From Nitrosomonadales bacterium (GTDB taxonomy: Bacteria > Pseudomonadota > Gammaproteobacteria > Burkholderiales > Gallionellaceae): a DNA stretch of 44,571 bases. This document shows, piece after piece, positions 1,574 to 44,193 of the stretch; the first letter of the stretch is position 1, and every line of letters starts with the position of its first letter. Under the pieces are notes generated by a model. It was not told where the DNA came from, did not search any database, and saw only the letters and a list, made by a program, of their open reading frames with translations. A program made the position numbers and the translations under genes. Location of the stretch: NCBI GenBank assembly GCA_016183575.1, contig JACPEI010000051.1:1-44571 (forward strand), given 5' to 3'.

Positions 1574-1601
1574 GTAGGGGCACGGCGCGCCGTGCCCCTA
1601 C
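1574..1601. repeat. 28-bp perfect palindrome, copy 1
   Basis: Perfect palindrome with half-site GTAGGGGCACGGCG, lying between the SCO1-like gene and the response regulator. An identical 28-bp copy is at 8244-8271. It could form a very stable hairpin in RNA. It is a dispersed repeat of this genome; a terminator role is possible but no T-run follows. Confidence 0.95.
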
Positions 1602-1614
1602 CGAATCATATAAA

Positions 1615-2180
1615 TCATGCTCCACCGAGCAGCAAGCGGATATCGTCAACCAGCCAGTCGGTGCGCTGCGCAAGCGGCGCACGCAAGCGCACCTTGCCGT
1701 TGGGATCCACCAAAAATGCGCCCACGGTGTGATCCATATTGTAGCCGGATGCGGTCGGCCGCTTCTCGTATGCCACATAAAACGCCTTGGCAGCCTGCGC
1801 CGTGGCTTGTGCATCGCCATACAGCCCGAGGAACGACGGATGGAAAGCGGGAACATATTGCATCAGCATCTCCGGTTTATCGCGTTCCGGGTCGACGGTG
1901 ATGAACAGCACCTGCACCTTATCGGCATCACTTCCGAGCAGTTGCATCATCTGCGCCAGGTCGGCCAGCGTGGTGACGCACACATCCGGGCATTGAGTGT
2001 AACCGAAGAACAGCACCACCGCCTTGCCGCGAAAATCCGCCAGCGTGCGCGTTTTGCCGTTATGGTCGGTCAGGCGTTGCGCCGATATCGCTGGCGTGGA
2101 ACGGCGAAGGCAATTTTGGTTTTTCGCAACCGGCCAACAACGCGACCAACAACAAGATAAATAAATTACGCAGCCACATG
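1615..2180 (-). pseudogene. SCO1/SenC copper-chaperone lipoprotein, frameshifted
   Basis: SCO1/SenC proteins are periplasmic, membrane-anchored thioredoxin-fold proteins that help assemble the CuA site of cytochrome c oxidase. From ATG at 2180 the reading frame gives a lipoprotein signal, MWLRNLFILLLVALLAGC, then EKPKLPSPFHASDIGA, and reaches a stop soon after. The SCO domain continues in another frame from about position 2075: RLTDHNGKTRTLADFRGK, the copper motif CPDVC, the distal His in MDHTVGAFLVDPNG, ending at 1615. The two frames meet at the start of the domain, where homologues usually have several more residues between DI and LTDHNGK; a small deletion would explain both the shortening and the frameshift. 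A translation starting at 2196 keeps the domain but has no credible signal peptide. It is a real lesion or a sequencing/assembly error. Confidence 0.8.
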
Positions 2181-2327
2181 ACAACTTCCTGTCCATCCAT
2201 ATAAATAAAAGATATAGCCCACTTTAGTCAGGCCATACACGCCGACAATGCTACCGCACATGCCGAGGCAATGCACGCCGCCGAGCAGCCCGACAAAAAA
2301 TACCGCGGCGATGCTGAATTCAGTCAT
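2166..2327 (-). pseudogene. TauE/SafE-like (sulfite exporter/urease accessory-like) gene, N-terminal stump
   Basis: A 53-codon frame starting at ATG 2327, which overlaps the bioD stop by 8 bases as in an operon. The first 37 residues contain FFVGLLGGVHCLGMCG, the typical first helix of the TauE/SafE and UreH-like integral membrane family (normally 200-plus residues). After TKVGYIF the similarity stops and the frame closes at 2166, inside the start of the SCO1-like gene. About three quarters of the gene is missing. This looks like a deletion that joined the bioD-proximal half of the gene to the SCO1 gene. Confidence 0.65.
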
Positions 2328-3048
2328 GCAGATCCGCCTGCTCGAGCAATGCCAAATTCAAAAATGTTGCAGCCTCACGGGCATCCGGCTGCGCCTGACA
2401 GGGCACCACGCCCAGCAGCGGCGCGCTGATGCGCTGCCGCAACGCGGCGATATTTTCATTCAGCATCGCCATGCCCGCCTCCGGCACATTCGCGACCCAG
2501 CCCGCCAGCGTCAAACCGCGCGCGGCAATTGCCTCTGCCGTGAGCAACGCATGGTTCTGGCAACCCAGCCGCATCCCGACCACCAGAATAACCGGCAGCC
2601 CCAACTGCTCTGCCAGATCCGCGCTGTCCTGCTCTTCGTTCAATGGCACGCGGAAGCCGCCCACGCCCTCCACAATCACCACATCGGCCTGCGCGTTCAG
2701 CTCCGAAAACGATTCCGCAATGCGCGCAAAGTCAATGCTGACGCCGACGAATTGCGCGGCCAGTTGGGGTGCGACGGCTGGTGCGAAACAATACGGGTTG
2801 ATCTGCCCGCCGCTGGCCAGCACATTGCTGGCGGCGCGCAATTGCCTGACATCGTCATGCTGGCCGCCGTCGGCGCAACCCGCAAGAGGTACGCCGGCGG
2901 GCTCCCCGTTGCTGCGCGACGACCCTCCCGCAGCCACCGGCTTCATGCCGACCACGCTTTTGCCCTGCGCGGCAAAGCCGTGCAGCAACGCGCAACTGAC
3001 CAGCGTCTTGCCGACTCCGGTGTCGGTGCCTGTAATAAAATAGTTCAT
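2320..3048 (-). CDS. bioD: ATP-dependent dethiobiotin synthetase BioD
   Basis: BioD makes dethiobiotin from 7,8-diaminopelargonic acid, CO2 and ATP in the cytoplasm. The sequence begins MNYFITGTDTGVGKT with the P-loop at residues 7-14, has the KPVAAG motif, VVIVEGVGGFRVPL and LPVILVVGMRLGC, and ends FLNLALL like other BioD proteins. Start chosen at 3048 because the P-loop is at the usual distance from it; an in-frame upstream ATG at 3117 would add 23 residues with no family match and overlap bioC. After KPVAAG it carries about 14 extra residues (with SNGEPAGVPLAG) compared with my memory of the E. coli protein; the origin is unknown. It is the last intact gene of the bioB-F-H-C-D run. Confidence 0.92.
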   Translation of the reverse strand: MNYFITGTDTGVGKTLVSCALLHGFAAQGKSVVGMKPVAAGGSSRSNGEPAGVPLAGCADGGQHDDVRQLRAASNVLASGGQINPYCFAPAVAPQLAAQFVGVSIDFARIAESFSELNAQADVVIVEGVGGFRVPLNEEQDSADLAEQLGLPVILVVGMRLGCQNHALLTAEAIAARGLTLAGWVANVPEAGMAMLNENIAALRQRISAPLLGVVPCQAQPDAREAATFLNLALLEQADLHD

Positions 3049-3076: not shown

Positions 3077-3949
3077 TCATTTGAGCTTGAAAGAAGTCTG
3101 GATGATCGCCGCGCCATCCGCAGTCACGCGCGGCTGCGGCTTCCACGCGTGGCCGTACACCACCTCGTAGGTGGCAGGCAGCTTGCCGTCGCGGCGCAGC
3201 CGCTCGTAATTCTCCAGCAGACGCGCCCAGGCATTTTTTCCCATCAGCCCCTGGCCGCGCCCCGCCGTGGCGTTGTGCGCGCCGATGCGCTTCAGGTCAT
3301 ATAACAAACCGCGCATATCGTCGTAAGTCAGCGTCAGGTATTCCATGTCCATCACCGGCTCGGCAAACCCGGCATGCATCAGCATGTCGCCGATGTCGTG
3401 CATATCGGCAAAGCGGTTCAGGTGATTGTGGTTGTCCACGCCGCCGAAAGCCTGGCGCAATTCCTTCAGCGTATCCGGCCCGAAGGTGCTGAACATCAGC
3501 AGCCCGTCCGCCTTCAGCACGCGATGCAACCCGACGAAAGCCGCCGGCAGGTCGTTGCACCACTGCAGCGCCAGGTTCGACCACACCATTTCGACACTGC
3601 CGGCGGCCAATGGCAAGGCTTCGATGTCGCCGCATACCTGCATCGGCTGCGCGCCGCTGAACAGTTTGCGCCACCAACCGGAACGGTTGCGCGCAGCCTG
3701 CAACATGCCGATGGCGATATCCAGCGAGGCGATTTGCGTCGCCGGATATTTTTCCGCCAGCTGGCGCGTACCCCAGCCGGTGCCGCTGCCCGCATCGAGG
3801 ATGCGCACGGGCTGCAGCTTGACGTAGTCCAGCCGCTCCAGCATGCGCGCGCACACCTCGCGCTGCAACACCGCCGCCGCATCGTAGTCTGCCGCCGCGC
3901 GGTTGAAGGCGCGGCGCATCCGGCGTTTATCAATTAAAAAATCATTCAT
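3077..3949 (-). CDS. bioC: Malonyl-ACP O-methyltransferase BioC
   Basis: BioC methylates malonyl-ACP using S-adenosylmethionine, so that fatty acid synthesis can build the pimeloyl chain of biotin. The 290-residue protein starts with the typical DKRRMRRAFNRAAADYD helix, followed by the methyltransferase motif I LDAGSGTGWGTRQLA (residues about 51-65), an acidic residue in SLDIAIGML, and WSNLALQWCNDL, a hallmark of BioC. The start overlaps the bioH stop by 8 bases, indicating translational coupling. With bioH it forms the BioC/BioH pimelate route. No damage is seen. Confidence 0.95.
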   Translation of the reverse strand: MNDFLIDKRRMRRAFNRAAADYDAAAVLQREVCARMLERLDYVKLQPVRILDAGSGTGWGTRQLAEKYPATQIASLDIAIGMLQAARNRSGWWRKLFSGAQPMQVCGDIEALPLAAGSVEMVWSNLALQWCNDLPAAFVGLHRVLKADGLLMFSTFGPDTLKELRQAFGGVDNHNHLNRFADMHDIGDMLMHAGFAEPVMDMEYLTLTYDDMRGLLYDLKRIGAHNATAGRGQGLMGKNAWARLLENYERLRRDGKLPATYEVVYGHAWKPQPRVTADGAAIIQTSFKLK

Positions 3950-4781
3950 GCAAGAAACTCATCAGGTGTTTCATAAATTCATCCGGGTGCGACAGGAACG
4001 GCGCATGCGCCGCGCCCTCGATCATTGCCAGCCGCGCATCCGGCAGTTGCGCCGCCAGATAATGCGCTGCCTGCGGCGGCGTGAGCGTATCACGTTCGCC
4101 GCAAACCACCAGTGCGGGTTGCCGGATGCCCGGCAATTCGCCGCGCAGATCGCAGTCGCGCAAAATTTCCAGCCCGGCTTGCAATGCGCCCAGATCCGGC
4201 TCGCCACGGCTCATTAACGCGCCGCGCAACGCCGCCAGCAGCTCGCGCTCCCGCTCGCTGCCGCGCACCTGCAGCGCGAGGAAGCGCCGCAATGTCAGCG
4301 CATAATCCTGTCGCAGCGCGGCGGCAAATTCCGCCAGCGTCTCTTGCGCCATGCCATATTCCCAGCCCGGCCTGCGCACGAAGCACGGCGTGCTCGCCAC
4401 CAGCGTCAGGCGGCTTATCTGCTGCGGATGGCGCAGCGCCCAGCGCAGCGCGATTTGCCCGCCCAGCGACCAGCCGCATACGCTGAGCGGCTCGTCGAAC
4501 TGTGCAGATAGCTGGTCGACGAGGGAATCCAATAGCAAGTGGGGAGTGGTAGGTGGGGAGTGGGAAAACCTGCCCCCACTTCCCACTTCCCACTCCCTAC
4601 TCCCTACTCCCCACTTCCCACTCCCCGCACTAAACCCATGCCCCGGCAAATCCACCGCCAGCACGCGGAAATGTTCCGCCAATCGTTCCGCGACTCCGCC
4701 CCACATCCCGCCGTGCATGCCCCAGCCGTGAATCAGCAGCAGCGGCGCACCGCTGCCGTAACTGTCAACGTGCAAGCTCAT
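3942..4781 (-). CDS. bioH: Pimeloyl-ACP methyl ester carboxylesterase BioH, with an in-frame repeat insertion
   Basis: BioH is an alpha/beta hydrolase that removes the methyl group from pimeloyl-ACP methyl ester, ending the BioC-started chain. Visible features: LLLIHGWGMHGGMW (oxyanion-hole region), nucleophile Ser105 in GWSLGG, acid Asp in CGERDTLTP, and catalytic His in GAAHAPFLSHP. The protein has 279 residues against 256 in E. coli. The excess lies between DLPGHGFS and LLDSLVDQL (residues about 52-83), where a G/W/S-rich stretch (GKWGVGSREWEVGSGG) is encoded by a tandem heptamer repeat at 4537-4628. The insertion keeps the frame and falls in a loop before the nucleophile, so activity may survive. 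The start overlaps the bioF end by 17 bases. Confidence 0.92.
   Translation of the reverse strand: MSLHVDSYGSGAPLLLIHGWGMHGGMWGGVAERLAEHFRVLAVDLPGHGFSAGSGKWGVGSREWEVGSGGRFSHSPPTTPHLLLDSLVDQLSAQFDEPLSVCGWSLGGQIALRWALRHPQQISRLTLVASTPCFVRRPGWEYGMAQETLAEFAAALRQDYALTLRRFLALQVRGSERERELLAALRGALMSRGEPDLGALQAGLEILRDCDLRGELPGIRQPALVVCGERDTLTPPQAAHYLAAQLPDARLAMIEGAAHAPFLSHPDEFMKHLMSFLHE
4537..4628. repeat. Degenerate heptamer repeat block inside bioH
   Basis: Inverted halves built from 7-base units of the type GTGGGGA/GTGGGAA: plus-strand units first (4537-4563), then their complement (4571-4628), around the core AGTGGGAAAACC. The same core recurs at about 28899 and 30032. Seven bases is not a codon multiple, but the total insertion is in frame with bioH. 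Confidence 0.85.
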
Positions 4782-6057
4782 GCAACGCCCCGATTAGCTG
4801 TGCCACATCGCTTTCGCTGTGCGCTGCCGACAGGGTGATGCGCAGGCGCGCCGTGCCCTGCGGCACGGTGGGCGGGCGGATCGCCGCGACCTGGATGCCG
4901 CGCTCGCGCAGTCCCTCGCTCAACGCCAGCGCCGCCTGGTTATCGCCGACCAGCAACGGCTGGATCGCCGTGTCCGATGGCATCAAGTCCCAAGGCAAGC
5001 CGGCCAGCCCGCTGCGCAGTTGCGCGATCAATCTATGCAGATGTTCGCGCAACGCGTCGCCCTGCCCGATGAGTTGCAGGCTCTCCAGCACCGCACAGGC
5101 CAAGGCAGGCGGCGTGGCCGTCGTGTAGACATAACTGCGCGCATGGTTGACCAGCGTATCGATCACGACCTGCTCCGCCGCGACAAACGCGCCGAATACC
5201 CCGGCGGCCTTGCCCAGCGTCGCCATGTAAATGATGCGCGACGAATCAACCCTCTCCCTAGCCCTCTCCCGTAAACGGGAGAGGGGACTTTCCCTCTCTC
5301 CCCGTTTGGGGAGATAACCAGCGGCTTGGCTGCTGTTTTTTGGCAGCCTAGTCGAATGGCTAGTTGTTTCATCAGAGTTGGAGAGAGGGGAGACGTGATA
5401 AAGCGAGCCGCGCCCCTGTTTGCCCAGCACGCCGAAGCCGTGCGCATCATCGACCAGCAGCCACGCATCATGCCGTTCGCATAACGCCAGCAATTCCGGC
5501 AGCGGCGCAAGATCGCCGTCCATGCTGAACACCGCATCGGTGATGATGAGCTTGCGCCCGGTTTTTGGTTGTTCCAGCAATTGCGCCAGTTGCGCGATGT
5601 CGTTATGGCGATAGCGTTTGACTGCGGCACGCGACAGCAGCATCGCATCGTTCAATGACGCGTGATTGAGCCTGTCGGCAAATACCGTATCACCCTTGCC
5701 GACCAGAGCCTGAACCGCGCCGAGATTGGCCATGTAGCCGGTGGAGAACAGCAGCGCGGCAGGCTTGCCGACAAATGCCGCAAGTTCCTGTTCGAGCCGG
5801 TGATGCGGCTCGAAATGCCCGCTCACCAGATGCGCCGCGCCCGCACCGACACCCCATTGCTGCGCACCCTGCTGCAGCGCGGCGATGAGCCGCGGATGGT
5901 TCGCCAGGCCGAGGTAATCGTTGCTGCAAAACGAAAGATAAGCGCTCCCATCGACAACGATATGCGGCGACTGCGGGCTGTCGAGCGTGCGCCGCCGGCG
6001 CAGCAGGCCTTGCGCGGCGCGGGCTTCGAGTTCTTGCTGGAGTTCAAGGAAAGGCAT
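4765..6057 (-). CDS. bioF: 8-amino-7-oxononanoate synthase BioF, with an in-frame repeat insertion
   Basis: BioF is a PLP enzyme that condenses pimeloyl-ACP with L-alanine in the first ring-forming step of biotin synthesis. Seen: SFCSNDYLGLANHP near the N terminus, LNHASLNDAMLLS, the PLP-region DDAHGFGVLG, and the PLP-binding lysine in MATLGKAAG (Lys283). The protein has 430 residues; E. coli BioF has 384 with the lysine at 236, so about 46 residues are extra just before the lysine. They are encoded by repeat DNA at about 5249-5398 (residues about 220-270, including DETTSHSTRLPK and LSRLRERARERV). No stop or frameshift results. The insertion sits between GRGSLYH and IIYMATLGK, near the active site, so folding could be affected. 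It lies downstream of bioB and overlaps bioH. Confidence 0.93.
   Translation of the reverse strand: MPFLELQQELEARAAQGLLRRRRTLDSPQSPHIVVDGSAYLSFCSNDYLGLANHPRLIAALQQGAQQWGVGAGAAHLVSGHFEPHHRLEQELAAFVGKPAALLFSTGYMANLGAVQALVGKGDTVFADRLNHASLNDAMLLSRAAVKRYRHNDIAQLAQLLEQPKTGRKLIITDAVFSMDGDLAPLPELLALCERHDAWLLVDDAHGFGVLGKQGRGSLYHVSPLSNSDETTSHSTRLPKNSSQAAGYLPKRGERESPLSRLRERARERVDSSRIIYMATLGKAAGVFGAFVAAEQVVIDTLVNHARSYVYTTATPPALACAVLESLQLIGQGDALREHLHRLIAQLRSGLAGLPWDLMPSDTAIQPLLVGDNQAALALSEGLRERGIQVAAIRPPTVPQGTARLRITLSAAHSESDVAQLIGALHELAR
5249..5398. repeat. Composite repeat inserted in bioF
   Basis: Two modules. Left: a hairpin-rich CT/GA block (arms CTCTCCCGT and ACGGGAGAG at 5263-5285, then CCCTCTCTCCCC). 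Middle (5314-5375): a 62-bp module that recurs with a modest number of mismatches at 6078-6139 downstream of bioB (shared core GCCTAGTCGAATGGCTAG). Right: another GA-rich block. The CT/GA hairpin module is related to the one inside gpsA near 29660-29700. It is translated as part of BioF. Confidence 0.85.
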
Positions 6058-6065
6058 AGGTGGTT

Positions 6066-6203
6066 GTAGGTTGGGTTATAACCAGCGACTTGGTTAGCGT
6101 CTTTTGCCAGCCTAGTCGAATGGCTAGTTGTTTCATCAGGCGCGGTTTTGCGCCGTAACCCAACGATATGCATGTCGGGTTACGCTGCGCTAACCCGACC
6201 TAC
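6066..6203. repeat. Composite repeat between bioB and bioF
   Basis: Contains a second copy (6078-6139) of the 62-bp module found inside bioF, flanked by GTAGGTTGGGTTA on the left and a GGGTTACGCTGCGCTAACCCGACCTAC hairpin element (6178-6203) on the right. The right edge overlaps the bioB stop codon: TAG at 6202-6200 is made from the repeat's GTAGGTCGGGTTAG end on the minus strand. The whole bioB-bioF gap consists of this element. Confidence 0.85.
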
Positions 6204-7195
6204 GATTTTTCGGCCAGCGGATACATCCCCAGCTTGTCGAGCAACGCTCTATCCTTCTCGACATCCGGGTTGCCGGTGGTGAGCAATTGCTCGCCATAGA
6301 AAATGGAGTTCGCGCCGGCGAGAAAACACAAGGCCTGCACCGCATCGGACATCTGCTGCCGCCCGGCGGAAAGGCGCACAAGCGCCGTCGGCATCGTGAT
6401 GCGCGCCACCGCGACGGTGCGCACGAAATCCAGCGGGTCGAGTTCTTCCGCCTGCGCCAGCGGCGTGCCTTCGACCCTGACCAGGTTATTGATCGGCACG
6501 CTTTCCGGATAAGGGTTCATGTTGGCCAGTTGCGCGACCAGCCCAGCGCGCTGCGTGAGGCTCTCGCCCATGCCGACGATGCCGCCGCTGCAGACACTCA
6601 TCCCCGCGTTGCGCACCCGCTCCAGCGTATCCAGCCGGTCCTGATAGTCGCGCGTGCTGATGATGTTGCCGTAAAACTCCGGCGAGGTATCCAGGTTATG
6701 GTTGTAGTAATCCAGCCCGGCATCACGCAATTGCCCGGTCTGCTCGTCGTTCAGCATGCCCAGTGTCGCGCAGGTTTCCATGCCCAGATCGCGCACCGCC
6801 TTGACCATTTCCACCACGCTCGCCATGTCCTCGTCGCTCGGTTCGCGCCACGCCGCTCCCATGCAGAAACGCCCGGCGCCTTTTTGCTGCGCGGCGCGCG
6901 CGGCCGCGACCACCTCCTCCACCTCCAGCATCTTCCTTTCTTCCACACCGGCGGAATTAAACGCCGATTGCGGGCAATAGCCGCAGTCCTCGGTGCAACC
7001 GCCGGTCTTGATCGACAGCAGGGTGGAAAGCTGCACCGCATTCGGGTCGAAATGCTCGCGGTGTATCTGTTGCGCGCGATACAGCAGGTCGGCAAACGGC
7101 AGCTTGAACAGGGCTTCCACATCGGCCACATTCCAGCGTTGCGGTGCGGTGGTTTTTTTGATGGGGCGGATGAATTCTATAGTTTGAGTGTTCAT
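6200..7195 (-). CDS. bioB: Biotin synthase BioB
   Basis: BioB is a radical-SAM enzyme that inserts sulfur into dethiobiotin, the last step of biotin synthesis. The 331-residue protein has the radical-SAM cluster motif CTEDCGYC (preceded by SIKTGG), the second-cluster region with MGAAWREP and [23 protein letters not shown], and the Arg ligand region VRLSAGRQ. It is the first gene of the bio operon and starts 329 bases from the divergent comF. Its stop codon is provided by a repeat element directly downstream, so the natural C terminus may have been slightly trimmed; E. coli BioB is 346 residues. No strong ribosome site is seen before ATG 7195. Confidence 0.96.
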
Positions 7196-7237
7196 GGCGG
7201 ATTAATTCAAATTTGCGTTATAAACAATAATGATTTG

Positions 7238-7289
7238 GTAGGGTGCGTTCTACGCACCATTATCATCTGGTGCGTAGAACGCACCCTAC
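7238..7289. repeat. Inverted repeat with 21-bp perfect arms in the bioB-comF gap
   Basis: Arms GTAGGGTGCGTTCTACGCACC at 7238-7258 and its exact complement at 7269-7289 with a 10-base loop. It belongs to a GTAGGGTGC family seen also at 22823-22866, 24226-24249 (partial) and 41320 onward. It sits in the divergent promoter region of bioB and comF. Confidence 0.95.
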
Positions 7290-7314
7290 GTATGATCCTT
7301 AAAACCTCTTTTCA

Positions 7315-7444
7315 TCCACGAAAAACACGAAAGTCACGAAATCAATCAATTGGTTACCATAGTGTGGCGAGTCACCCGATAGGTGTAACTATTTATTGCG
7401 GCATCTATTTGAATATGTTCGTGCTTTTTCGTGCTTTTCGTGGA
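7315..7444. repeat. 130-bp element with imperfect inverted ends in the bioB-comF gap
   Basis: Left end TCCACGAAAAACACGAAAG at 7315, right end with CTTTTTCGTGCTTTTCGTGGA up to 7444: imperfect inverted termini about 26 bp long enclosing about 77 bp. With the preceding hairpin, this fills most of the 329-base gap 7196-7524, where I see no gene. Confidence 0.8.
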
Positions 7445-7524: not shown

Positions 7525-8247
7525 TTGTCAATTTTACGCAATGTTATTCTGAACATCCGCGCAGGAATTGGGCAAATTCTACCCGCGCAGCCTTGCGTGC
7601 TGTGCGGCTGCATGAGCCATGACGGGCTGTGGTGTGCGGCCTGCGACCGCGCCTTACCCTATCTTGCAGCGGCACATTGCCCAAGCTGCGCCCTGCCGGC
7701 CCCGTCCGGCGAAGTATGCGGGCAGTGCCTGAAACACCCGCCGTTATTCGCCCGCACCACCGCCGTATTCGGCTATGCATTTCCGCTCGACAAGCTGATC
7801 CAGGCAATGAAATACGGCGAACAACTCGCCCTGGCGTATGCCTTTGCAGAAAAACTGGCGTGCCGCATCGACAAAACCAGATTGCCCGACTGCATCATCC
7901 CGATGCCGCTGCATCCGGCAAAATTGCGCGAACGCGGCTTCAATCAATCGCAACTGCTCGCCGCCAAAATCGCCCGCGAGCTTGACCTCGAACTGCGTCC
8001 GCGTGCCTGCCGGCGCGTGCGCAATACCCCGCCGCCATCCACCCTGCCGTGGAAAGAACGCAAGAAAAACATGCGCGATGCGCTCTGCTGCGATGCCGAT
8101 TTGACCGGCAAGCGCGTCGCGTTGGTGGATGATGTGCTGACCACCGGAGCCAGCCTGAACGCGCTCGCCGACGCGGTGCAGAAACGCGGTGCGGCTGAAA
8201 TCAGCGCGTGGGTAGTGGCGCGAACATTGTCACACCGCCGCACGTAG
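7525..8247 (+). CDS. comF: ComF family phosphoribosyltransferase-like protein
   Basis: ComF-type protein linked in competent bacteria to DNA uptake and handling of the incoming strand; the exact reaction is not established. The 240-residue protein has an N-terminal zinc-finger-like Cys set (CVLCGC, CAACD, CPSC, CGQC; residues about 24-72) and a C-terminal PRPP-binding loop VALVDDVLTTGAS (residues about 193-205). Other family motifs are AMKYGEQLALA and PLHPAKLRERGFNQSQ. The start is TTG at 7525, supported by AAAGGA seven bases upstream. The stop TAG (8245-8247) lies inside the 28-bp palindrome at 8244-8271. It diverges from the bio operon, an arrangement I recall from other betaproteobacteria. 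Confidence 0.92.
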   Translation: MSILRNVILNIRAGIGQILPAQPCVLCGCMSHDGLWCAACDRALPYLAAAHCPSCALPAPSGEVCGQCLKHPPLFARTTAVFGYAFPLDKLIQAMKYGEQLALAYAFAEKLACRIDKTRLPDCIIPMPLHPAKLRERGFNQSQLLAAKIARELDLELRPRACRRVRNTPPPSTLPWKERKKNMRDALCCDADLTGKRVALVDDVLTTGASLNALADAVQKRGAAEISAWVVARTLSHRRT

Positions 8248-8271
8248 GGGCACGGCGCGCCGTGCCCCTAC
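8244..8271. repeat. 28-bp perfect palindrome, copy 2, between convergent comF and mshN
   Basis: Identical to the copy at 1574-1601. Its left end encodes the TAG stop of comF; its right end overlaps the TAG (8273-8271) that would close mshN in its undamaged frame. The palindrome may also work as a bidirectional terminator between the convergent genes, although T-runs are absent. Confidence 0.95.
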
Positions 8272-8392: not shown

Positions 8393-8551
8393 TGCCGTAG
8401 CCCATCAGCCAGATGCCGTTATCCGGGGCGAGTTGCAGCGCAATCTGGTAATGAGTGATCGCCTCCTTGTGCCGTAGCCCATCAGCCAGATGCCGTTATC
8501 CGGGGCGAGTTGCAGCGCAATCTGGTAATGAGTGATCGCCTCCTTGTGCCG
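8393..8551. repeat. 77-bp direct tandem duplication inside mshN
   Basis: The sequence starting at 8398 repeats exactly from 8475 (period 77) and ends at a shared TGCCG, which also precedes the first copy at 8393. The 5-bp TGCCG at both boundaries is what slippage or microhomology-mediated duplication would leave. The unit is not a multiple of three. Confidence 0.97.
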
Positions 8552-9514
8552 GTTCTGGCGTTGCAGCAATGCGGCAAAAAACGCCTGATAGTCGGCCTGC
8601 CGGTCCGCATAAGACAGGGCCTTTTCCAGTGTCGCCGTTGCCTGCTCAACCGCCCCTCGCCCGACTTGCAAACGCGCCAGCAGCATCGCAAACCCGGTAT
8701 GTTCCGGTTTGCTTTTCAAGCCGCCCTGCAACACGCGCTCGGCATCCGCGCCGCGGCCACCCTCCAGCAGCAAAGCCACCAATGCCTGACGCGCCGCTTC
8801 ATGGCCCGCATCCAGACGCAACACCGCTTCATATCCCGCTATCGCGTCGGCGACATGACCCTGCTGCATCGACGCGACCGCTTGGCGGAATGTCGCATCG
8901 GCGCGTTGCTCGGGGCTGACCTGCTTCAGCGGCGATACACTTTCTGGCGGCTGAACAGCGGCTCGCGCATTTGGCGAGGCGGCCTGGATTGGCTGCGGCT
9001 TGGCAGATCGCGCCGGCGGCGCTGCATTGGCCGACCGCTTTGCGCCCCCGCCCGGGATGGAGCTGTTTTTCGCGTCAGGCAAGGCTGCGTCTTGCCGGAG
9101 GGAGGAAGGCAGCGGTATCGCGCTTAGCTCAAAACTCAGGCGCGAGGCGGGTGGAGGCATTTCTGCCGGCGGGGTTTCTCCTGCGTCAACGGCATCAGCG
9201 ACACCAATAACACCGGCAACAACCGAAACAGCGGGAACCGGGGCGGGGGCCGGCGCCGGTACCGCTACGACCGGCTGGTGTTGCATGGTGCTCACCGCAA
9301 CAACCTGCGGCCCTCCGGCCAAGCTCAGGACAGGCTTGCGCGCTTGCATCCATTGCCATGCGGCGATCCCGCCTGCCAGCGCCAACCCCAATGCCAGCAA
9401 GGGCATGACGAAGCTGCGTTTGCCGTGCGGCACGGCGCGCACCAAGGTCTGTTCCGGTGCGGTATGCGCGCCGCGCTGTTCGAGCTGATTGAGCACCTGG
9501 TTGATGACACTCAT
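8405..9514 (-). CDS. mshN: MshN-like TPR protein of the MSHA pilus, C terminus frameshifted by a duplication
   Basis: MshN-like proteins are inner-membrane TPR proteins of MSHA pilus assembly. From ATG 9514: MSVINQVLNQLEQRG (family start), a membrane segment MPLLALGLALAGGIAAW at about residues 37-53, a Pro/Ala-rich linker, then TPR helices (for example DAIAGYEAVLRLDAGHEAAR and EAITHYQIALQLAPDNG). The start overlaps the mshM stop (ATGA). After WLMGYG the frame enters the second copy of a 77-bp tandem duplication and ends 20 residues later. Without the duplication the frame would continue through ISLQAAQRTDDARDAFKRAL to a TAG at 8273-8271. So about 40 native C-terminal residues are lost. It is the last gene of the pilus cluster. 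Confidence 0.85.
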   Translation of the reverse strand: MSVINQVLNQLEQRGAHTAPEQTLVRAVPHGKRSFVMPLLALGLALAGGIAAWQWMQARKPVLSLAGGPQVVAVSTMQHQPVVAVPAPAPAPVPAVSVVAGVIGVADAVDAGETPPAEMPPPASRLSFELSAIPLPSSLRQDAALPDAKNSSIPGGGAKRSANAAPPARSAKPQPIQAASPNARAAVQPPESVSPLKQVSPEQRADATFRQAVASMQQGHVADAIAGYEAVLRLDAGHEAARQALVALLLEGGRGADAERVLQGGLKSKPEHTGFAMLLARLQVGRGAVEQATATLEKALSYADRQADYQAFFAALLQRQNRHKEAITHYQIALQLAPDNGIWLMGYGTRRRSLITRLRCNSPRITASG

Positions 9515-10486: not shown

Positions 10487-12148
10487 CTAAGGTCTTGTGT
10501 CCTGCCCATTCAACCTGTTAAACCGGTTGCGGCTTTGCGTGATGTCATCCGACCAGTCCTTGTCGTTATCCACCACGGTGGGTTTCAACAGGATAACCAG
10601 TTCGCGTTTTTCGCTGCGCTTGCTGGTCTGCCCGAATATCGCCTTCGGCAACCCCGGCAGGCCGGACTGGTCGTCGAAGGTTGCCTGGCGCATCAGCCCG
10701 CCGATGGCGACAATCTGCCCATCCTTGGCGCGCACGATGCTGTCGGTTTCGGAAACGGAACTGGAAGCCAGCGGCAAATTAAGTGTGCCACCTGTACCGG
10801 TATTTACCGTTTTATTCACCGTGCTGACCAGGCTCACCGAAGGATGGATGTGCAATATAATTTCATTGTTCTGGTCGATGCGCGGCGTCACGTCCAGCGC
10901 GATGCCGGAAAAGAACGGCTGCAGCGTAACGCTCGGCGTGGAAGTGGTGGCTGTGCCGGTGGTCGTGGTCGTGGAAATATTGGTCACGAAGAACTCGTCC
11001 GTGCCCACCTTGAGCACCGCCTTCTGATTGTTCAGCGTGGCGATGCGCGGGCTGGACAGCACATGCACGTTGCCCTGCGACTCCAGAAAACTCAGCAAGG
11101 CCGCAAAATTGTTGGTTTGAAACGCCAGGCCAAATAACGAACCTGCCATACCGGATGCCAATGCCGCAGTCGTGCCTGCGGCGGCGCCGACACCCGCAGC
11201 GGTCTGAGGCAATATCGTTCCAGCATTGACTTGCCCCGCCGCCAGCGAGCTATTCGGTATATTTCCCAATGCAGGGCTCTTGAACGCAGCCCAATTCACC
11301 CCACTCTGGAAGCCGTCATTGAGTTGCACCTCGATAATTTTCGCCTCGAGTATCACCTGCCGCTCGATGGAAATCTGCGAAGCCTTGAGATAAGCCGCGA
11401 CATTCCTCAGTTCATCCGGCAGCGCGCGCACCACGATCACGCCCGACATCGGGCTCACCACCACGCTGCGCCCTTTTTCGTTGCCGACAATCGCTTGCAG
11501 CGATTTACCCAGTTCATCCCAGAAGTCGGCGCTGCTGGTCATGCTTACGTTGCTGCCGTCCTGCCCTCCCGTGGTGGCAGTGGTGGTAGTGGCGGCCGCA
11601 CCTGTCGTGCCGCCCGTGGAACTGCCCGACACCGAAGTGGAGGTGACGCGCAACGAAGAAGTTCCCGTCCGCAACCCGGTCAGATAATTCACCTGGAAAA
11701 TCCGCATCTGCAGCGTCACCGGCTGGATATAAATGCGCGCGCCATCCATTCTGTATTCGTAGCCGTATATCTCACGGATCGCCTCCAGCGCCTCGAGCAC
11801 CGTCACGTCTTTCAGGTTCAGCGAGATATTGCCGCTGACTTCGGGATGCAGCAGCATGCTGTAGCGCGTGCCGGAAACGATGGCCATGAATACCTGGTTG
11901 ACCGGCGTATTGTTCACCGTCAAATCGAATTTGGTCTCCAGCGGCTTACTGTCCACCCTGGGCAGCCCCATCGTGAGAGGAGGCAGCAAGGCATTGCTCA
12001 CCGCATCGGGCTTGCCCGGCTGCGCGCTGTCCTGCACCGCCTGGTTCATTTCGCGCTGAATGGCCTCTGTGGTTTGATTTTTGCTGCCTGGAGTCGCACA
12101 GCCTGTCAAAACCAACAGACCTGCGCACAGCCATAACGAAATTTTCAC
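10487..12148 (-). CDS. mshL: MshL secretin, outer-membrane channel of the MSHA pilus
   Basis: The secretin multimer forms the outer-membrane pore through which the pilus leaves the cell. The 553-residue protein has a lipoprotein signal with lipobox LVLTGC (Cys near residue 17), an N0/secretin-TonB domain (FDLTVNNTPVNQVFMAI, about 75-150), a Ser/Thr/Gly-rich linker (SGSSTGGTTGAAATTTT, about 185-210), an N1-like domain with VVSPMSGVIVVRALPDEL, and the secretin core with VILEAKIIEVQLND, VHVLSSPRIATLNNQKA and a C-terminal GLMRQATFDDQSGLPGLP. The start overlaps the mshK stop by 4 bases. All core motifs are intact. Confidence 0.94.
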   Translation of the reverse strand: MKISLWLCAGLLVLTGCATPGSKNQTTEAIQREMNQAVQDSAQPGKPDAVSNALLPPLTMGLPRVDSKPLETKFDLTVNNTPVNQVFMAIVSGTRYSMLLHPEVSGNISLNLKDVTVLEALEAIREIYGYEYRMDGARIYIQPVTLQMRIFQVNYLTGLRTGTSSLRVTSTSVSGSSTGGTTGAAATTTTATTGGQDGSNVSMTSSADFWDELGKSLQAIVGNEKGRSVVVSPMSGVIVVRALPDELRNVAAYLKASQISIERQVILEAKIIEVQLNDGFQSGVNWAAFKSPALGNIPNSSLAAGQVNAGTILPQTAAGVGAAAGTTAALASGMAGSLFGLAFQTNNFAALLSFLESQGNVHVLSSPRIATLNNQKAVLKVGTDEFFVTNISTTTTTGTATTSTPSVTLQPFFSGIALDVTPRIDQNNEIILHIHPSVSLVSTVNKTVNTGTGGTLNLPLASSSVSETDSIVRAKDGQIVAIGGLMRQATFDDQSGLPGLPKAIFGQTSKRSEKRELVILLKPTVVDNDKDWSDDITQSRNRFNRLNGQDTRP

Positions 12149-12588
12149 TTTTTCTCCTTGTGTGCGACCGGCCCGCTTTTTTGCTTGCCTGATCGCACCT
12201 CGCCCGCTGGCAACTGCGGCTTTATTTTTGTTTCCTGCTTGCCGGTAATTTTTACATCGGGAAACAGCGTCATTACCTGCCGCCCCTGCGCTCCTCGCAA
12301 TATTACACTACCTTCATTCACTTCAATCAGTTTTGCATCACCATGCTTGCCGCCCAATTCGACGGTTTCCCCGTCAATAATCGCAGCCCGGCGGGTTTTT
12401 GAAATGATGATGGATTGCAGGCCTGCGGGGGCCGCTTCCACACTGCTTGCAGCGACCGGTGCGGCAATCGAGGCGGGCGGACGAGTCGGGTCGGGCAACT
12501 CCTCGGCACAACAGAAGACAGAAGGCAACAGACAACAGGCCAAATGTAGGGCGGATGAGCGCAGCGTTATCCGCCGCATGAATCCCAT
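12145..12588 (-). CDS. mshK: MshK-like pilus protein with a repeat-derived N terminus
   Basis: MshK-like proteins are small periplasmic pilotin/PilP-like components next to the secretin. The 147-residue protein has the typical DPTRPP motif after a signal peptide, then a compact C domain (LQSIIISKTRRAAIIDGETVELG, VILRGAQGRQVMTLFPDVKI). Residues 1-15 (MGFMRRITLRSSALH) are encoded entirely by the dispersed repeat at 12545-12602; the hydrophobic part LACCLLPSVFCCA follows from unique DNA. ATG at 12588 or 12579 can start it, both inside the repeat. The native start seems to have been replaced. The stop overlaps mshL. Confidence 0.8.
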   Translation of the reverse strand: MGFMRRITLRSSALHLACCLLPSVFCCAEELPDPTRPPASIAAPVAASSVEAAPAGLQSIIISKTRRAAIIDGETVELGGKHGDAKLIEVNEGSVILRGAQGRQVMTLFPDVKITGKQETKIKPQLPAGEVRSGKQKSGPVAHKEKK

Positions 12589-13258
12589 ACGGCGGATAAC
12601 GGGTCAGCGTCAGCACCGCATCGGGATATTTATCCACGCTGAAGCTGACCTCGCCCCAAAACATCTGCGCCGGCATTTTTTCCAGCGCGTCGAGATAGCG
12701 CAACATGTCCAGATAACCGCCGCGCACGGTAATCTGTATGCCATGCTTGAAGATTTGTTTTTGCGCATCCGGCTGCTGTTGCCCGGCCGGCAAATCCGCG
12801 GCAGGCGGCTGCGCGGCTGCCTGGGGCTTTTCAACCAGCGGGCTCGCCGGCAGGGTTTTCAATTCAATCAGCTGCAGCTTGTCGTTCTTGCTCAGCACAT
12901 GCTCCAGCAAATTGGCCATTTTATCCGGCTCGACCAGCCGGTCGCTACGGCTTTGCAAATAACCGTTCTGCTCTTGCAACTGCTGCTTGAGCTGCGCCAG
13001 CCGGGCGCGCAACGGCGAATGTTCATCGGCGCGCCTGGCTTGCAACTGCACCTGCAACTGCGACTGCAACTCCTTCATTTTTTCCTGCTGCTGCACCACC
13101 TGCGCCGACAACGCCTTTTGCTTCACCAGCAAAGGATCCAGCAACGCCGCATTGAGCGCCGCGACCAGCACAAATGCCGCGGCCAGAAAAATCATTGCGC
13201 GCTCGCGCAGCGGCAGGCCGTCTATCTTGCCGCGCGCCAATTCCCAGTAACGCTTCAT
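12374..13258 (-). CDS. mshJ: MshJ (PilO-like) pilus protein, read-through at the C terminus
   Basis: MshJ is the PilO-type inner-membrane alignment protein: short cytoplasmic tail, one membrane helix (MIFLAAAFVLVAALNAAL, about residues 22-40), a coiled coil rich in Gln/Leu (about 45-115) and a periplasmic domain (IQITVRGGYLDMLRYLDALEKMP, FSVDKYPDAVLTLT). The native fold ends near residue 218. From there a repeat element (12545-12602) removes the stop, and translation goes on as RYPPYGIHAADN and then about 60 residues in a wrong frame through mshK, ending at 12374. So the tail of about 75 residues is probably non-native. The start overlaps the PilN-like gene by 4 bases. Confidence 0.85.
   Translation of the reverse strand: MKRYWELARGKIDGLPLRERAMIFLAAAFVLVAALNAALLDPLLVKQKALSAQVVQQQEKMKELQSQLQVQLQARRADEHSPLRARLAQLKQQLQEQNGYLQSRSDRLVEPDKMANLLEHVLSKNDKLQLIELKTLPASPLVEKPQAAAQPPAADLPAGQQQPDAQKQIFKHGIQITVRGGYLDMLRYLDALEKMPAQMFWGEVSFSVDKYPDAVLTLTRYPPYGIHAADNAALIRPTFGLLSVAFCLLLCRGVARPDSSARLDCRTGRCKQCGSGPRRPAIHHHFKNPPGCDY
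12545..12602. repeat. Dispersed inverted repeat at the mshJ/mshK junction
   Basis: Stem arms CGTTATCCGCCG (12565-12576) and CGGCGGATAACG (12590-12601) with a 13-base loop, preceded by TGTAGGGCGGATGAGCGCAG. On the minus strand it carries the ATG codons used by mshK and replaces the mshJ stop. The end module (GCCCTACATTT on the minus strand) is shared with the repeat in front of envC near 41415-41425. Confidence 0.9.
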
Positions 13259-14932: not shown

Positions 14933-15017
14933 GTAGCCCGGATGAAGCGAAGCGGAATCCGGGGCAGTGGGGTATATTAAGAGCGCCCCGGATTCCATTG
15001 CATTTCATCCGGGCTAC
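14933..15017. repeat. 85-bp inverted repeat between mshQ and mshI
   Basis: Ends GTAGCCCGGATGAA and TTCATCCGGGCTAC, with inner arms CGGAATCCGGGGC and GCCCCGGATTCC. A long near-palindromic hairpin of a type widespread between genes of betaproteobacteria. It lies between two same-direction pilus genes and could partially attenuate transcription. Confidence 0.9.
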
Positions 15018-22822: not shown

Positions 22823-22866
22823 GTAGGGTGCGTTTCACGCACCATGGTGCATGGAATGCACCCTAC
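22823..22866. repeat. 44-bp inverted repeat of the GTAGGGTGC family
   Basis: Ends GTAGGGTGCGTTTCACGCACC and GGTGCATGGAATGCACCCTAC; imperfect arms. Same family as 7238-7289. It lies between mshA and its terminator. Confidence 0.92.
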
Positions 22867-28844: not shown

Positions 28845-28930
28845 GGAGTGGATCGGCACTGCGTGCCTCAGTGGTGAGTGGAGCGGAACTACGTGCCTCA
28901 GTGGGAAAACCCTCTCCCCACTCCCCACTT
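28842..28930. repeat. GTGGGGA-type repeat between trmL and gpsA
   Basis: TAGGGAGTGGATCGGCACTG, then two copies of GTGCCTCAGTGG (28863-28874 and 28892-28903), the core AGTGGGAAAACC, and an inverted CTCCCCACTCCCCACTTA end. The right end runs into the gpsA stop (TAA at 28931-28929). Same core as the block inside bioH. Confidence 0.85.
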
Positions 28931-39341: not shown

Positions 39342-39346
39342 TTCGT

Positions 39347-39789: not shown

Positions 39790-41379
39790 ATGGACGTCAC
39801 CCCTGTTTTGCTGCTCATTCTGGATGGCTTCGGCTACCGCGAGAGCGCCGATTTCAACGCGATTCTGGCGGCTCGCAAGCCCAATTGGGACAAGCTGTGG
39901 CGCGATTATCCGCATACCCTGATCAACACCTCGGAAAAATTTGTCGGCCTGCCGTCCGGACAGATGGGCAATTCCGAAGTGGGCCATCTCAATATCGGCG
40001 CCGGGCGTGTGGTGTATCAGGATTTGAGCCGCGTCGATGTTGCCATCGAGGATGGCAGTTTCTTCACCAACCCCGCTCTGCGCGAGGCGGTGGACATGGC
40101 CAGACAAAACGACAGCACACTGCATATCATGGGACTGCTCTCTCCGGGCGGCGTGCATAGCCACGAGAGTCACATTTTCGCGATGCTGGAAATGGCGGCG
40201 CGCGCCGGCTTGAAAAAAATCTGTCTGCACGCATTTCTGGATGGGCGCGATACCCCGCCCAGAAGCGCCGCGCAATCGCTGCAACTGCTGCAGGATAAAT
40301 GTACTGCATTGGGAACCGGGCAAATCGCCAGCATCGTCGGCCGCTTTTACGCAATGGACCGGGATAACCGCTGGGAACGCGTGCAGCCCGCTTATGAATT
40401 GCTCACGCAAGGCCGCGGCGAATTTACCGCAACCGATGCGTTGTCCGCGTTGGAACAAGCCTACGCACGCGGCGAATCGGATGAATTCGTCAAGCCCACT
40501 GCGATTGTTTCCGGCCGCGCGGAAAACACCATGCAGGACGGCGATGTGGTGATATTCATGAACTTCCGCGCCGACCGCGCCCGCGAAATCACGCGCGCTT
40601 TGACAGACGAGACGTTCGGCGGATTCAATCGTGCCTATGTGCCCAAGCTTGCCAGCTTCGTTATGCTGAGCAGTTATGGCGAGGACTTTCATTTGCCTTG
40701 CGCCTACACCCAGAATGCCATTCATAATGGCTTCGGCGAATATATCTCGAATCTGGGGCTCAGGCAGTTGCGCATCGCCGAGACTGAGAAATACGCGCAT
40801 GTCACCTACTTTTTCAACGGCGGCAGGGAACAACCCTACCCCGGCGAAGACCGCATCCTCGTTCCCTCGCCCAAAGTCGCGACCTATGACCTCAAACCGG
40901 AAATGAGCGCGTTTGAGGTGACCGACAAGCTCGAAGCCGCGATCCTGAGCCGCCAATACCATGCCATCATCTGCAATTACGCCAACGGCGACATGGTGGG
41001 GCACAGCGGCAACATGGAGGCAGCCACCCAGGCCATCGAGGCGCTGGATATTTGCATCGGCCGCGTGGTCAAGGCGATGCAGGCCATCGGCGGCGAAGTC
41101 ATCATCACCGCCGATCACGGCAACGCCGAACAAATGCTCGATCGCACCACGCAGCAGGCGCATACCGCGCACACCCTGAATCCGGTGCCGTTCCTGTATA
41201 TCGGGCGCAAAGCCAGGCTGGCCGAAGGCGGCGCGCTGCGCGATCTCGCCCCCAGCCTGCTGACCATGATGGGGCTGCCGCAACCGGCAGAAATGACTGG
41301 GCACAGCCTGATCCAATTCGTAGGGTGCAATAAGCCTGTCCTGAGCGCAGTCGAAGGGCGTAGCGCATTGCACCAATGA
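39790..41379 (+). CDS. gpmI: 2,3-bisphosphoglycerate-independent phosphoglycerate mutase
   Basis: GpmI interconverts 3- and 2-phosphoglycerate using two metal ions and a phosphoserine. The 529-residue protein begins [18 protein letters not shown] and has [17 protein letters not shown] (nucleophile Ser region), [29 protein letters not shown] and [14 protein letters not shown] 39790 gives the family start; an upstream in-frame ATG (39733) adds 19 unrelated residues. The natural end (MTGHSLIQF) is followed by about 17 residues ([19 protein letters not shown]) coded by a repeat at 41320-41422, so its own stop was probably lost. It overlaps envC by 4 bases. Confidence 0.95.
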
Positions 41380-42578: not shown

Positions 42579-42591
42579 TACTGAGGAAATT

Positions 42592-43986
42592 ATGCGTATT
42601 CTGGAAAAAGCAGGTTTGGTAAGTTTGGGTCTGGTTGCGGGCGTGTCGATCAGCCTGCATTTTGCCGCGATGGCCGACAAGGAAACGCTCGCCACGCCTT
42701 TGCCCATCGAGGAATTGCGTGCCTTCTCCGAAGTATTCCGCCGCATCAAGAGCGACTACGTCGAACCCGTCACCGACAAAAAGCTGATCAATGAAGCCAT
42801 CAACGGCATGTTGAGCGGCCTCGACCCCCACTCTGCCTATCTCGACACGGAAGCCTTCAAGGAACTGCAGGTCGGCACGCAGGGTGAATTCGGCGGACTC
42901 GGCATCGAAGTCAGCATGGAAGACGGCCTGGTGAAAGTCATTTCGCCGATAGAAGACACCCCGGCCTATCACGCCGGCATCAAGAGCGGCGACCTGATCG
43001 TCAAACTGGATGACACCCTGGTCAAGGGCCTGACACTGAACGATGCGGTGAAGCGTATGCGCGGCAAACCGGGCAGCAAGATTGTCCTGACCATCATCCG
43101 CAAGGATGAGCCCAAACCGCTTACGATTACCCTGGTACGGGCAATCATCAAGGTGCAGAGCGTGAAATCCAAGCTACTGGAGTCCGGCTATGGGTTTATC
43201 CGTATCACGCAGTTTCAGGAACATACCGGCGAAAACCTCGCCACCGCTCTGGAAACCATCATCAAGCAAAATCAGGGTCCGCTAAAAGGATTGGTGCTTG
43301 ATTTGCGCAATGACCCGGGTGGGTTGCTGACCGGCGCCGTCGGCGTTTCTGCCGCTTTTCTGGCCAAGGATGCACTGGTGGTTTATACCGAGGGGCGCAC
43401 CGAAGACGCAAAAATGCACCTGACTGCCAGTCCGGATAATTATCTGCGCGGCAACGGCAAGAGCGATTACCTGAAAAACCTGCCCGACTCCGTCAAGAGC
43501 GTGCCGCTGGTTGTGCTGGTTAACGGCGGATCTGCATCCGCATCTGAAATTGTCGCCGGCGCATTGCAGGATCACAAACGCGCGGTCATCATGGGCACAC
43601 AGACTTTCGGCAAAGGCTCCGTGCAAACTGTTTTGCCGTTGGGCAACAATACCGCAATCAAACTGACTACGGCGCGCTATTACACCCCGGGAGGGCGCTC
43701 TATCCAGGCCAAAGGCATCGTGCCGGATATTCTGGTGGAAGATCCCGCCACCGCCGGGCAGGACAGCACATTCCGCTTGCGTGAAGTGGACCTGAATAAG
43801 CACTTGATCAATGACAAACCGTCGAACGAAAAACCGGACGATACCGGCAAAAAAACGCCTGCAACTCCAAATATCAAAGAAGATACTACAAAATCCGTAC
43901 CCGCTGAATTTGGCGCCAAGAACGACTATCAACTTAATCAGGCATTGAACCTTCTCAAAGGAATGCAAATATTGCAAGGGAAATAA
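42592..43986 (+). CDS. ctpA: S41 family carboxy-terminal processing protease
   Basis: A 464-residue periplasmic CtpA-type protease: N-terminal membrane/signal segment (LVSLGLVAGVSISLHFAAMA), YVEPVTDKKLINEAINGMLSGLDPHSAYL, a PDZ domain (FGGLGIEVSMEDGLVKVISPIEDTPA; about 100-190), and the catalytic core with nucleophile Ser in VNGGSASASEIVAGAL and general base Lys in GTQTFGKGSVQT. GAGGA precedes ATG 42592. It lies 13 bases after envC, so gpmI-envC-ctpA form one operon; such proteases trim cell-wall-enzyme regulators. Confidence 0.95.
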   Translation: MRILEKAGLVSLGLVAGVSISLHFAAMADKETLATPLPIEELRAFSEVFRRIKSDYVEPVTDKKLINEAINGMLSGLDPHSAYLDTEAFKELQVGTQGEFGGLGIEVSMEDGLVKVISPIEDTPAYHAGIKSGDLIVKLDDTLVKGLTLNDAVKRMRGKPGSKIVLTIIRKDEPKPLTITLVRAIIKVQSVKSKLLESGYGFIRITQFQEHTGENLATALETIIKQNQGPLKGLVLDLRNDPGGLLTGAVGVSAAFLAKDALVVYTEGRTEDAKMHLTASPDNYLRGNGKSDYLKNLPDSVKSVPLVVLVNGGSASASEIVAGALQDHKRAVIMGTQTFGKGSVQTVLPLGNNTAIKLTTARYYTPGGRSIQAKGIVPDILVEDPATAGQDSTFRLREVDLNKHLINDKPSNEKPDDTGKKTPATPNIKEDTTKSVPAEFGAKNDYQLNQALNLLKGMQILQGK

Positions 43987-44167
43987 TCTGCCCCCAGCAA
44001 GATCGGTTCGATCTGATGCTTCCGAACTGAACAAAAAGCGCGATGCCGTATTCAGCGCGGAATCGCCCGGACAGATTGAGCGCGCCTATCAACTGTTGCC
44101 TGGCCAACCCGGCTGCAAGGTAAAGTATGGCAATACCGCAAACACGCCACGCGTTTCCTGCACGACT
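43987..44167. other. Gap after ctpA without a supported gene
   Basis: The 181 bases between the ctpA stop and the hairpin at 44168 hold no gene I can support. One frame continues without an ATG through DASELNKKRDAVFSA and PGQIERAYQLLPGQPG to a stop after the hairpin; this could be a remnant of a small coding region. The section 44194-44441 has terminators and a 5S fragment and no gene. Confidence 0.5.
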
Positions 44168-44193
44168 AGCCCAACCTGTTGTTGGGCTTTTTA
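44168..44193 (+). terminator. Rho-independent terminator after ctpA
   Basis: Stem AGCCCAAC, loop CTGTT, stem GTTGGGCT, then TTTTTATT. Eight perfect pairs and a T-run on the plus strand; the likely end of the gpmI-envC-ctpA transcript. Confidence 0.85.

Follow-up and report, generated by a model that had tools for sequence, protein, structure and literature searches.

The 44,571 nucleotides analysed here (the window) form contig C87 of a Gallionellaceae metagenome-assembled genome (MAG) of 1.55 Mb that is 79% complete. The window carries bioB-bioF-bioH-bioC-bioD and gpsA, together with what we read as an MSHA-type pilus locus; the names trmL and msh* used below are likewise our own reading of the genes. 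The nearest matches of its bioF are in Gallionella and Sideroxydans assemblies, and a 5S rRNA is the sole Rfam match above the gathering score. An initial annotation of the sequence proposed that short dispersed repeats pervade genes and gene junctions and not only intergenic space, which is borne out by motif counts and by the copies that lie in frame or at junctions (Table 1). The window probably holds a layered community of non-autonomous repeats, mostly hairpins, in which GTAG-type repetitive extragenic palindromes (REPs) copied by REP-associated tyrosine transposases (RAYTs) make up one layer and an element of about 60 nucleotides (nt) another, with selection filtering the copies and tolerant loops in BioH and BioF receiving them.

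Repeat motifs were counted against a third-order Markov null, for the window and then for 313,493 bases of its own genome including the window (about a fifth of the genome, referred to here as the sample). Observed and expected counts in the window and in the sample, respectively, are 5/0.83 and 30/6.2 for GTAGGGGC, 5/0.30 and 27/1.3 for GTAGGGTGC, 3/0.27 and 10/1.2 for GTAGGTCGG, 2/0.20 and 8/2.8 for GTAGCCCGG, 8/0.03 and 12/0.0 for pairs of AGTGG heptamers, 4/0.10 and 7/0.3 for CCCTCTCCC, 2/0.00 and 8/0.0 for TAGTCGAATGGCTAG, 3/0.00 and 9/0.2 for CCTGTCCTGAGC, and 4/0.03 and 4/0.5 for AGGATTCAGG, all four copies of which are in the window. As bare motifs, CGTCATTCC (1/0.33 and 5/2.7), GTCATTCC (2/1.30 and 9/7.3), GTAGGAGC (2/0.93 and 10/6.2), TATCCGCCG (2/0.70 and 14/5.0), GTCGAAGGG (2/0.57 and 11/3.3) and TTGTAGG (7/2.83 and 43/22.2) are weak. 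The nine or more families first listed, for which a genome-wide count had been recommended, are therefore present, and most lie far above Markov chance in the bases counted; CGTCATTCC and GTAGGAGC are among those with weak bare-motif counts. A GTAG end with a palindrome, as in GTAG REPs, is present at 1574, 7238, 8244, 14933 and 22823, and GTAGGGGC and GTAGGGTGC are multi-copy in the sample (30 and 27 copies). A CGTCATTCC hairpin of the CGTC REP type is present at 21985, but its motif is found 5 times in the sample against 2.7 expected.

Stop-free inserts lie in frame in bioF (46 codons), bioH (about 25-33) and gpsA (about 20), as first described, and likewise in bioD (16). Despite them, BioF, BioH and BioD score above NCBIfam equivalog cut-offs, and GpsA above two NCBIfam subfamily cut-offs. 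Repeats also donate codons at junctions, as had been claimed, supplying at least four TAG or TAA stops (comF, bioB, gpsA and trmL) and two starts, those of mshK and, as we read it, mshD. The further idea that the process selects in-frame events is not needed, because the loss of broken genes, which probably left the in-frame inserts behind, explains the pattern.

No Y1 or IS110 match was found on the window's contig in own-genome searches that did not scan every open reading frame of the window, in line with the earlier remark that no transposase gene is near. Three Y1 genes lie elsewhere in the genome, and the recommended search for RAYTs found two: the proteins on contigs C65 (192.4 bits, E 3.6e-57) and C10 (195.5 bits, E 3.8e-58) exceed the 80-bit cut-off of NCBIfam NF047646, and that on C68 falls below it (63.5 bits). 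The C65 RAYT has GTAGCCCGGATG/GTAGCCCGCATG GTAG-type dimers on both sides, the family of window 14933-15017, and the C10 RAYT has GTAGGGTGGAT GTAG-type dimers on both sides, close to window 12546-12598. The flanking repeats match GTAGCCCGG itself, and GTAGGGCGGAT via a close relative, while neither GTAGGGGC nor GTAGGGTGC flanks any of the three Y1 genes in this 79% complete assembly. Since the RAYT flanks carry repeats of window type, some of the families have a source in trans. The suggestion of non-autonomous insertion driven in trans is thus supported for the families of 14933-15017 and, by relative, 12546-12598. Judging from these flanks, RAYTs probably move the GTAG families. The C10 RAYT and its REPs lie between an apparent gatA and gatB (L090:9971-10516). 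The C68 Y1 gene lies between AGGGGACAGACCACGG ends. At 19141-19153 the DUF6701 gene takes its first codons from the same end; the AGGGGACAGACCA end repeats of the Y1 gene recur elsewhere (L089, L107).

The GCCTAGTCGAATGGCTAG module, listed initially as one repeat among several, is the core of a discrete element of about 60 nt with a covarying hairpin, arranged as TAACCAGCGACTTGG-[covarying stem-loop]-CCTAGTCGAATGGCTAGTnGTTTCATCA. In an alignment of 39 of the 44 distinct 60-nt copies (five apparently shifted ones were left out), the stem has 16 pairs with 96.6% of pair cells standard, compared with 13-39% for slid structures. Double changes occupy 43 cells against 13.5 in shuffles, none of 500 of which reached 43; a double change is seen in 5 pairs, an unremarkable figure (130 of 500 shuffles). 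Among type A copies with full flanks, A is at position -1 in 62 of 62 and G at +1 in 44 of 62; the length is exactly 60 nt in 44 of 62, a lower bound given that the end rule cuts some copies early (for example L098), and a multiple of three in 54 of 62. The same rule makes the +1 count noisy and requires a final A, so that only the A at -1 is independent. This flank survey skipped L005-L007, L172 and L237-L250, which duplicate loci already covered, and 8 copies with an unplaced 3' end. A second 3' end, type B (...GGCTATGCARRGC), is found in 12 copies, often within GTAGGTCGGGCT-like REPs. The bases adjacent to the stem are CTAG, so the element lacks the tag of a GTAG REP. No longer, gene-bearing version was seen, both ends lying within about 60-80 nt in copies with placed ends.

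Among the hosts of the element are CTCTCCC hairpins, CCTGTCCTGAGC units in either orientation, REPs of GTAG and CGTC-like type, and further copies of the element. For 10 of 21 sites in the window's own genome, a 22-mer resembling the empty site is present in the sample; among 300 random [GC]A^G sites the figure is 22 (p 4e-6). One nested pair (L095) accounts for two of the 21. Filled and empty orthologues are available at two genes. In mshL, an in-frame 60-nt copy lies in the signal peptide of the nearest relative, L008, whose DNA blocks are 80-93% identical to the window; the corresponding site of the window is empty. In bioH, the heptamer insert of L033 contains a further 20 codons that the insert of L019 lacks. 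In a further case the host repeat is shared and the gene is not (filled in L050 bioD, empty in L072 bioF). No duplication beyond the shared A is seen against the empty orthologues, so the check for target-site duplications suggested at the outset gave none in aligned pairs apart from this one-base ambiguity. Joined flanks fold at a mean of -11.3 kcal/mol, compared with -9.1 for random A^G sites (p 0.003). In one genome (G044), two copies in opposite orientation with near-identical flanks lie about 3.2 kb apart (L253:468-527 and 3649-3708), as would follow from insertion into each end of a larger inverted-repeat unit.

Left ends of the element were found in 38 of 60 family genomes, with 18 in the window's own. 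A covariance model, for which at most 27 candidates per genome were scored, gives matches in 18 of the 200 genomes examined from the order and counts at least 27 copies in the window's genome. As 12 of the 18 genomes lie outside the family (four of them only with E between 1e-8 and 3e-4), a restriction of the element to the family was dropped. An exact 17-mer occurs in 2 of 398 Pseudomonadota genomes, both Gallionellaceae. Plasmid and phage records gave no match to the element; the 17-mer is present in one viral contig (L250). Longer repeats enclose 7 of the 8 copies read in G185 and 6 of 6 in G145 and probably carried them; in these two out-family genomes (L281-L287 and L289-L294) the longer repeats have themselves spread. 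In G249, type B copies stand head to tail in tandem in two of the four places read (L295, L296).

IS200/IS605-type elements and their short derivatives have hairpin ends, make no target duplication and insert 3' of fixed bases. It is a real if somewhat doubtful possibility that the 60-nt element is a non-autonomous member of this IS200/IS605/RAYT (HUH Y1) world whose transposase has been lost from many genomes. The single imperfect hairpin, the lack of a visible target-site duplication and the insertion of type A 3' of a fixed base speak for such kinship, as do the two 3'-end subtypes, the second without a fixed A, which resemble the single-strand logic of Y1 enzymes. Against it, the number of elements does not correlate with Y1 genes (PF01797) over 60 genomes (Spearman -0.05), 47 of which have a Y1 match; the element is present in 7 of the 13 without one, and Y1 was rejected as its mover, although loss of the transposase could explain these figures. 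The single-contig genome G044 has 15 left ends and no Y1 match. In contrast to IS200/IS605, the element has one hairpin, no autonomous form seen, and a target of 1-2 bases and not 4-5. IS110 was also rejected: judged by eye, the element does not track IS110 genes, which are matched in 27 of 60 genomes and not in the element-rich G044, G027, G022, G004 and G056. A bolder and rather unlikely reading is that the element represents a new class of minimal mobile DNA, consisting of one covarying hairpin of usually exactly 20 codons, whose enzyme would recognise single strands by their fold and direct insertion to an A in or close to a hairpin; it would live on other repeats and on itself and enter genes without a frameshift, and BioH would be a natural record of repeat insertions at one loop. 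With its near-fixed length, covarying hairpin and clean filled/empty pairs, the element is a concrete substrate for finding the mobilising enzyme, and it helps to explain the many nested hairpins in such genomes.

Comparison of the bio locus used the window and 80 Gallionellaceae bioF loci, the best 80 of 487 candidates, in which near relatives dominate. The BioH segment LPGHGxS...LDxIVDxL is 21-23 residues long in 25 of 78 Gallionellaceae and 26-59 in the other 53 (rows L015, L030 and L055 end with the locus just past the loop), and 22 residues long in all 24 out-family loci read, which come from genomes of the same taxonomic order and are the best-scoring 24 of 92 matches (Fisher p 5e-10). 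In the 92 out-family matches the stretch is net at least 4 residues longer than the insert-free query in 7 and at least 10 in 1, wherever in the protein this falls. The inserts belong to at least four unrelated classes, namely GTAG REP dimers, CTCTCCC hairpins, inverted AGTGG heptamers, GAAGGG tracts and others. By parsimony, presence or absence changes 10 times on a quick tree of bioB, bioF and bioC, and the class, assigned by eye, changes at least 33 times over 78 labelled rows, or 24 without the 14 rows labelled "other". Inserts differ between close sisters: those of L025 and L028 are unrelated, as are those of L017 and L041, and of L010 and L016 only one has an insert. In the window's BioH model, with a mean predicted local distance difference test (pLDDT) score of 87, the insert (56-78) is below 50, a disordered stretch of an otherwise confident fold. 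In the Gallionellaceae, which are iron-oxidising bacteria, the BioH loop, as its sequences have it, is hit recurrently by unrelated repeats that do not break the enzyme. The initial annotation had held that extra segments shared by distant relatives at the same sites would be ancient protein features; extra segments are indeed found at the same sites, but they are different ones, and the inserts are thus neither ancient features nor random scatter. MicroRNA-like Rfam matches on the heptamer hairpin of the window were taken as chance.

It is improbable, though worth weighing, that the BioH and BioF inserts were positively selected, any hairpin in the mRNA at mid-operon serving to slow translation or to set mRNA stability. 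Unrelated inserts do share stable hairpins: 31 of 41 BioH inserts of at least 54 nt fold better than dinucleotide shuffles at z < -2. They are also common in bioF and bioH, less so in bioD, and not found in bioC or inside bioB. However, 25 of the 78 family members have no insert, the available repeats are hairpins anyway, so that hairpin content needs no selection, the inserts of L019, L057, L076 and L047 fold poorly, and the gpsA insert of the window lies outside the operon. Far less probable is that the extra segments are ancient, fast-evolving protein linkers with low-complexity, repeat-like DNA. The loop is long across most of one large clade, with only the 10 changes in presence noted above, but the inserts belong to dispersed families (the REP core of L017 has 30 exact copies in its own genome and that of L029 has 7, with only 2 for L046 and 1 for L030), the bioF insert is missing in L008, and the tree does not show the same insert kept by descent across deep branches; ancient conserved inserts were rejected because the sisters differ. 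Errors of MAG assembly or binning can be dismissed as the origin of the repeats, since the same features are seen in dozens of separate assemblies including a single-contig genome, and the present data already suggest inserts in finished genomes of cultured strains, even if a perfect 77-bp tandem copy at 8393-8546 could be such an error. This duplication lies in a tetratricopeptide repeat (TPR, mshN-like) gene and, 77 not being a multiple of three, it shifts the frame and ends the gene early; it is either a real mutation or an assembly error.

BioF shows the same pattern to a lesser degree. Inserts of at least 11 residues are found in 17 of 81 loci (bioF of L087 is cut); 12 of them share one loop and the other 5 a second loop, and they represent at least four families. 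L008 has a bioF of 1152 nt without the 46-codon insert of the window. The BioF model (pLDDT 70.8) renders the insert poorly and is too weak for more. Rfam gave only matches below the gathering score for 4400-7400, and a sub-threshold match to whalefall-1 RNA (20.6 bits, cut-off 37) lies on the CCCTCTCCC hairpin at 5261-5317 (minus strand). For bioB, bioC, bioD, comF, gpsA and bioH, an insert rule counted only alignment columns filled in less than half of the rows. By this rule no internal insert of at least 8 residues is found in bioC (71 homologues) or comF (70), bioB has short inserts near the N-terminus in 3 of 72, and bioD has internal inserts in the window and in 3 of 62 homologues. The rule also listed short N-terminal extras in bioD (L041, L076), bioH (L051, L076) and SCO (4 of 42 homologues). 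For gpsA, 3 of 30 loci, all from the window's genus, have at least 6 extra residues at the insert site; gpsA was matched in 59 genomes, and in 10 of those lacking a locus the match is interrupted at this loop.

We propose that a first layer of GTAG-type and CGTC-like REPs, CTCTCCC hairpins and inverted heptamer tracts became dispersed in the genome, the GTAG families most likely being copied by RAYT (HUH Y1) enzymes that act in trans from genes at other loci. The 60-nt element would form a second layer, inserting 3' of A (usually A^G) without visible duplication and settling, above chance, at sites of which unoccupied repeat copies are present in other parts of the genome; the covariation of its hairpin suggests that it is recognised in folded form, as single-stranded DNA or RNA. 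Purifying selection would leave copies at gene ends, where they supply stops or starts, and in a few disorder-tolerant loops. Once an insert is in, the BioH loop, and less so the BioF loop, would tolerate nested or replacing inserts, so that loop contents may turn over quickly. Several observations weigh against this account. Movement of the repeats, which the initial annotation called an active process, was never observed, and the nearest relative compared is only 80-93% identical. No transposase was identified for the CTCTCCC, heptamer, CCTGTCC and AGGATTCAGG families of the first layer, and the element follows neither Y1 nor IS110 genes. Heptamer tracts can grow by slippage, the bioF insert of L078 is not repeat-like, and the 24 out-family BioH loci, being the best-scoring of 92, could disfavour inserts. 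For the element, type B copies have no fixed A, 11 of the 21 own sites lack an empty-like copy in the searched fifth of the genome, and joined flanks are only moderately more structured than random sites (14 of 62 fall below the 5th percentile). At the mshL site no hairpin repeat is recognisable, and hairpin hosts may thus be a survival effect.

Small dispersed repeats of cyanobacteria are very small and mobile and can lie inside other repeats; they differ from the 60-nt element in sequence and hosts. In-frame repeat insertion is usually told gene by gene. The BioH loop, with its many independent inserts and the 25 relatives that naturally lack one, lets the rate of uptake of random peptides, and its aftermath, be measured.

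The concept and most of the families are known, and the recurrence at the BioH loop and the 60-nt element go further. Di Nocera et al. 2013 (PMC3733652) describe, in other species, GTAG and CGTC REPs, intragenic REPs, REP ends that donate TAG, RAYTs flanked by GTAG REPs, and REPs at nearly the same position of recB in two Xanthomonas species. The window repeats resemble those REPs in their GTAG or CGTC end, hairpin, dimers, GTAG-flanked RAYTs, TAG stops and intragenic copies; they differ from them in that a single Gallionellaceae loop has taken up inserts in two thirds of the members read, and these inserts are of at least four unrelated kinds and not REPs alone. The Rickettsia palindromic elements (PMC2229807) are palindromic repeats that lie in frame in conserved proteins and are tolerated. 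The inserts of the window are also in frame and tolerated but, unlike those elements, come from many unrelated families with fast turnover at the same loop in Gallionellaceae. The 60-nt element is apparently undescribed: no paper in the openly licensed collection searched prints any of five of its 15-16-mers, and no description was found of it or of repeated use of the BioH loop, with only one search made by element letters and none naming BioH.

Table 1. Repeat-derived features of the window, with positions on the forward strand.
Feature	Position	Strand	Remarks
GTAGGGGCACGGCG palindrome, intergenic	1574-1601		
16-codon bioD insert (AGGSSRSNGEPAGVPL)	2884-2931	-	
Inverted AGTGGGA heptamers, bioH loop insert	4527-4625	-	model residues 56-78, pLDDT <50
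46-codon bioF insert	5251-5388	-	CCCTCTCCC hairpins and nested 60-nt element; precedes strand leading to invariant lysine
60-nt element, copy 1	5315-5374	+	inside CCCTCTC hairpin in bioF; antisense to bioF, 20 codons
GTAGGTTGGG REP interrupted by element copy 2	6066-6164		
60-nt element, copy 2	6079-6138	+	nested in GTAGGTTGGGTTA REP between bioF and bioB
GTAGGTCGGG REP, source of bioB TAG stop (6200-6202)	6174-6203	-	
GTAGGGTGC hairpin pair, intergenic	7238-7289		
GTAGGGGCACGGCG palindrome, comF TAG stop (8245-8247)	8244-8271		
CCTGTCCTGAGC unit in frame in TPR gene	9307-9335	-	
Empty site in mshL signal peptide	12129-12130		L008 has in-frame 60-nt element here
GTAGGGCGGAT/TATCCGCC REP dimer, contains mshK start codon	12546-12598		resembles REPs around C10 RAYT
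GTAGCCCGGATG REP dimer (GTAGCCCGG dimer)	14933-15017		family shared with REPs flanking C65 RAYT
AGGGGACAGACCA, end repeat of C68 Y1 gene	19141-19153	+	first codons of DUF6701 gene 15050-19165
CGTC-type hairpin, likely ATG of msh pilin gene (mshD)	21985-22010	-	
Inverted pair, GTCATTCC-type hairpin arms	22083-22158		
GTAGGGTGC hairpin pair, intergenic	22823-22866		
CCTGTCCTGAGC..GTCGAAGGG unit, intergenic	23389-23412	+	
AGGATTCAGG units coding leader of pilin-like (msh pilin) protein	24811-24894		
AGTGG heptamers, stops of trmL (28842-28844) and gpsA (28929-28931)	28842-28931		
CTCTCCCGC hairpin in frame in gpsA	29661-29700	-	host family same as L052 filled site
GTAGGGTGCAAT hairpin with nested CCTGTCCTGAGC unit	41320-41374	+	codes C-terminal ~20 residues of gpmI

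Among the features of Table 1, the bioD insert, the transposase end repeat at 19141-19153 and the GTAGCCCGG dimer at 14933-15017 go beyond those of the initial annotation.

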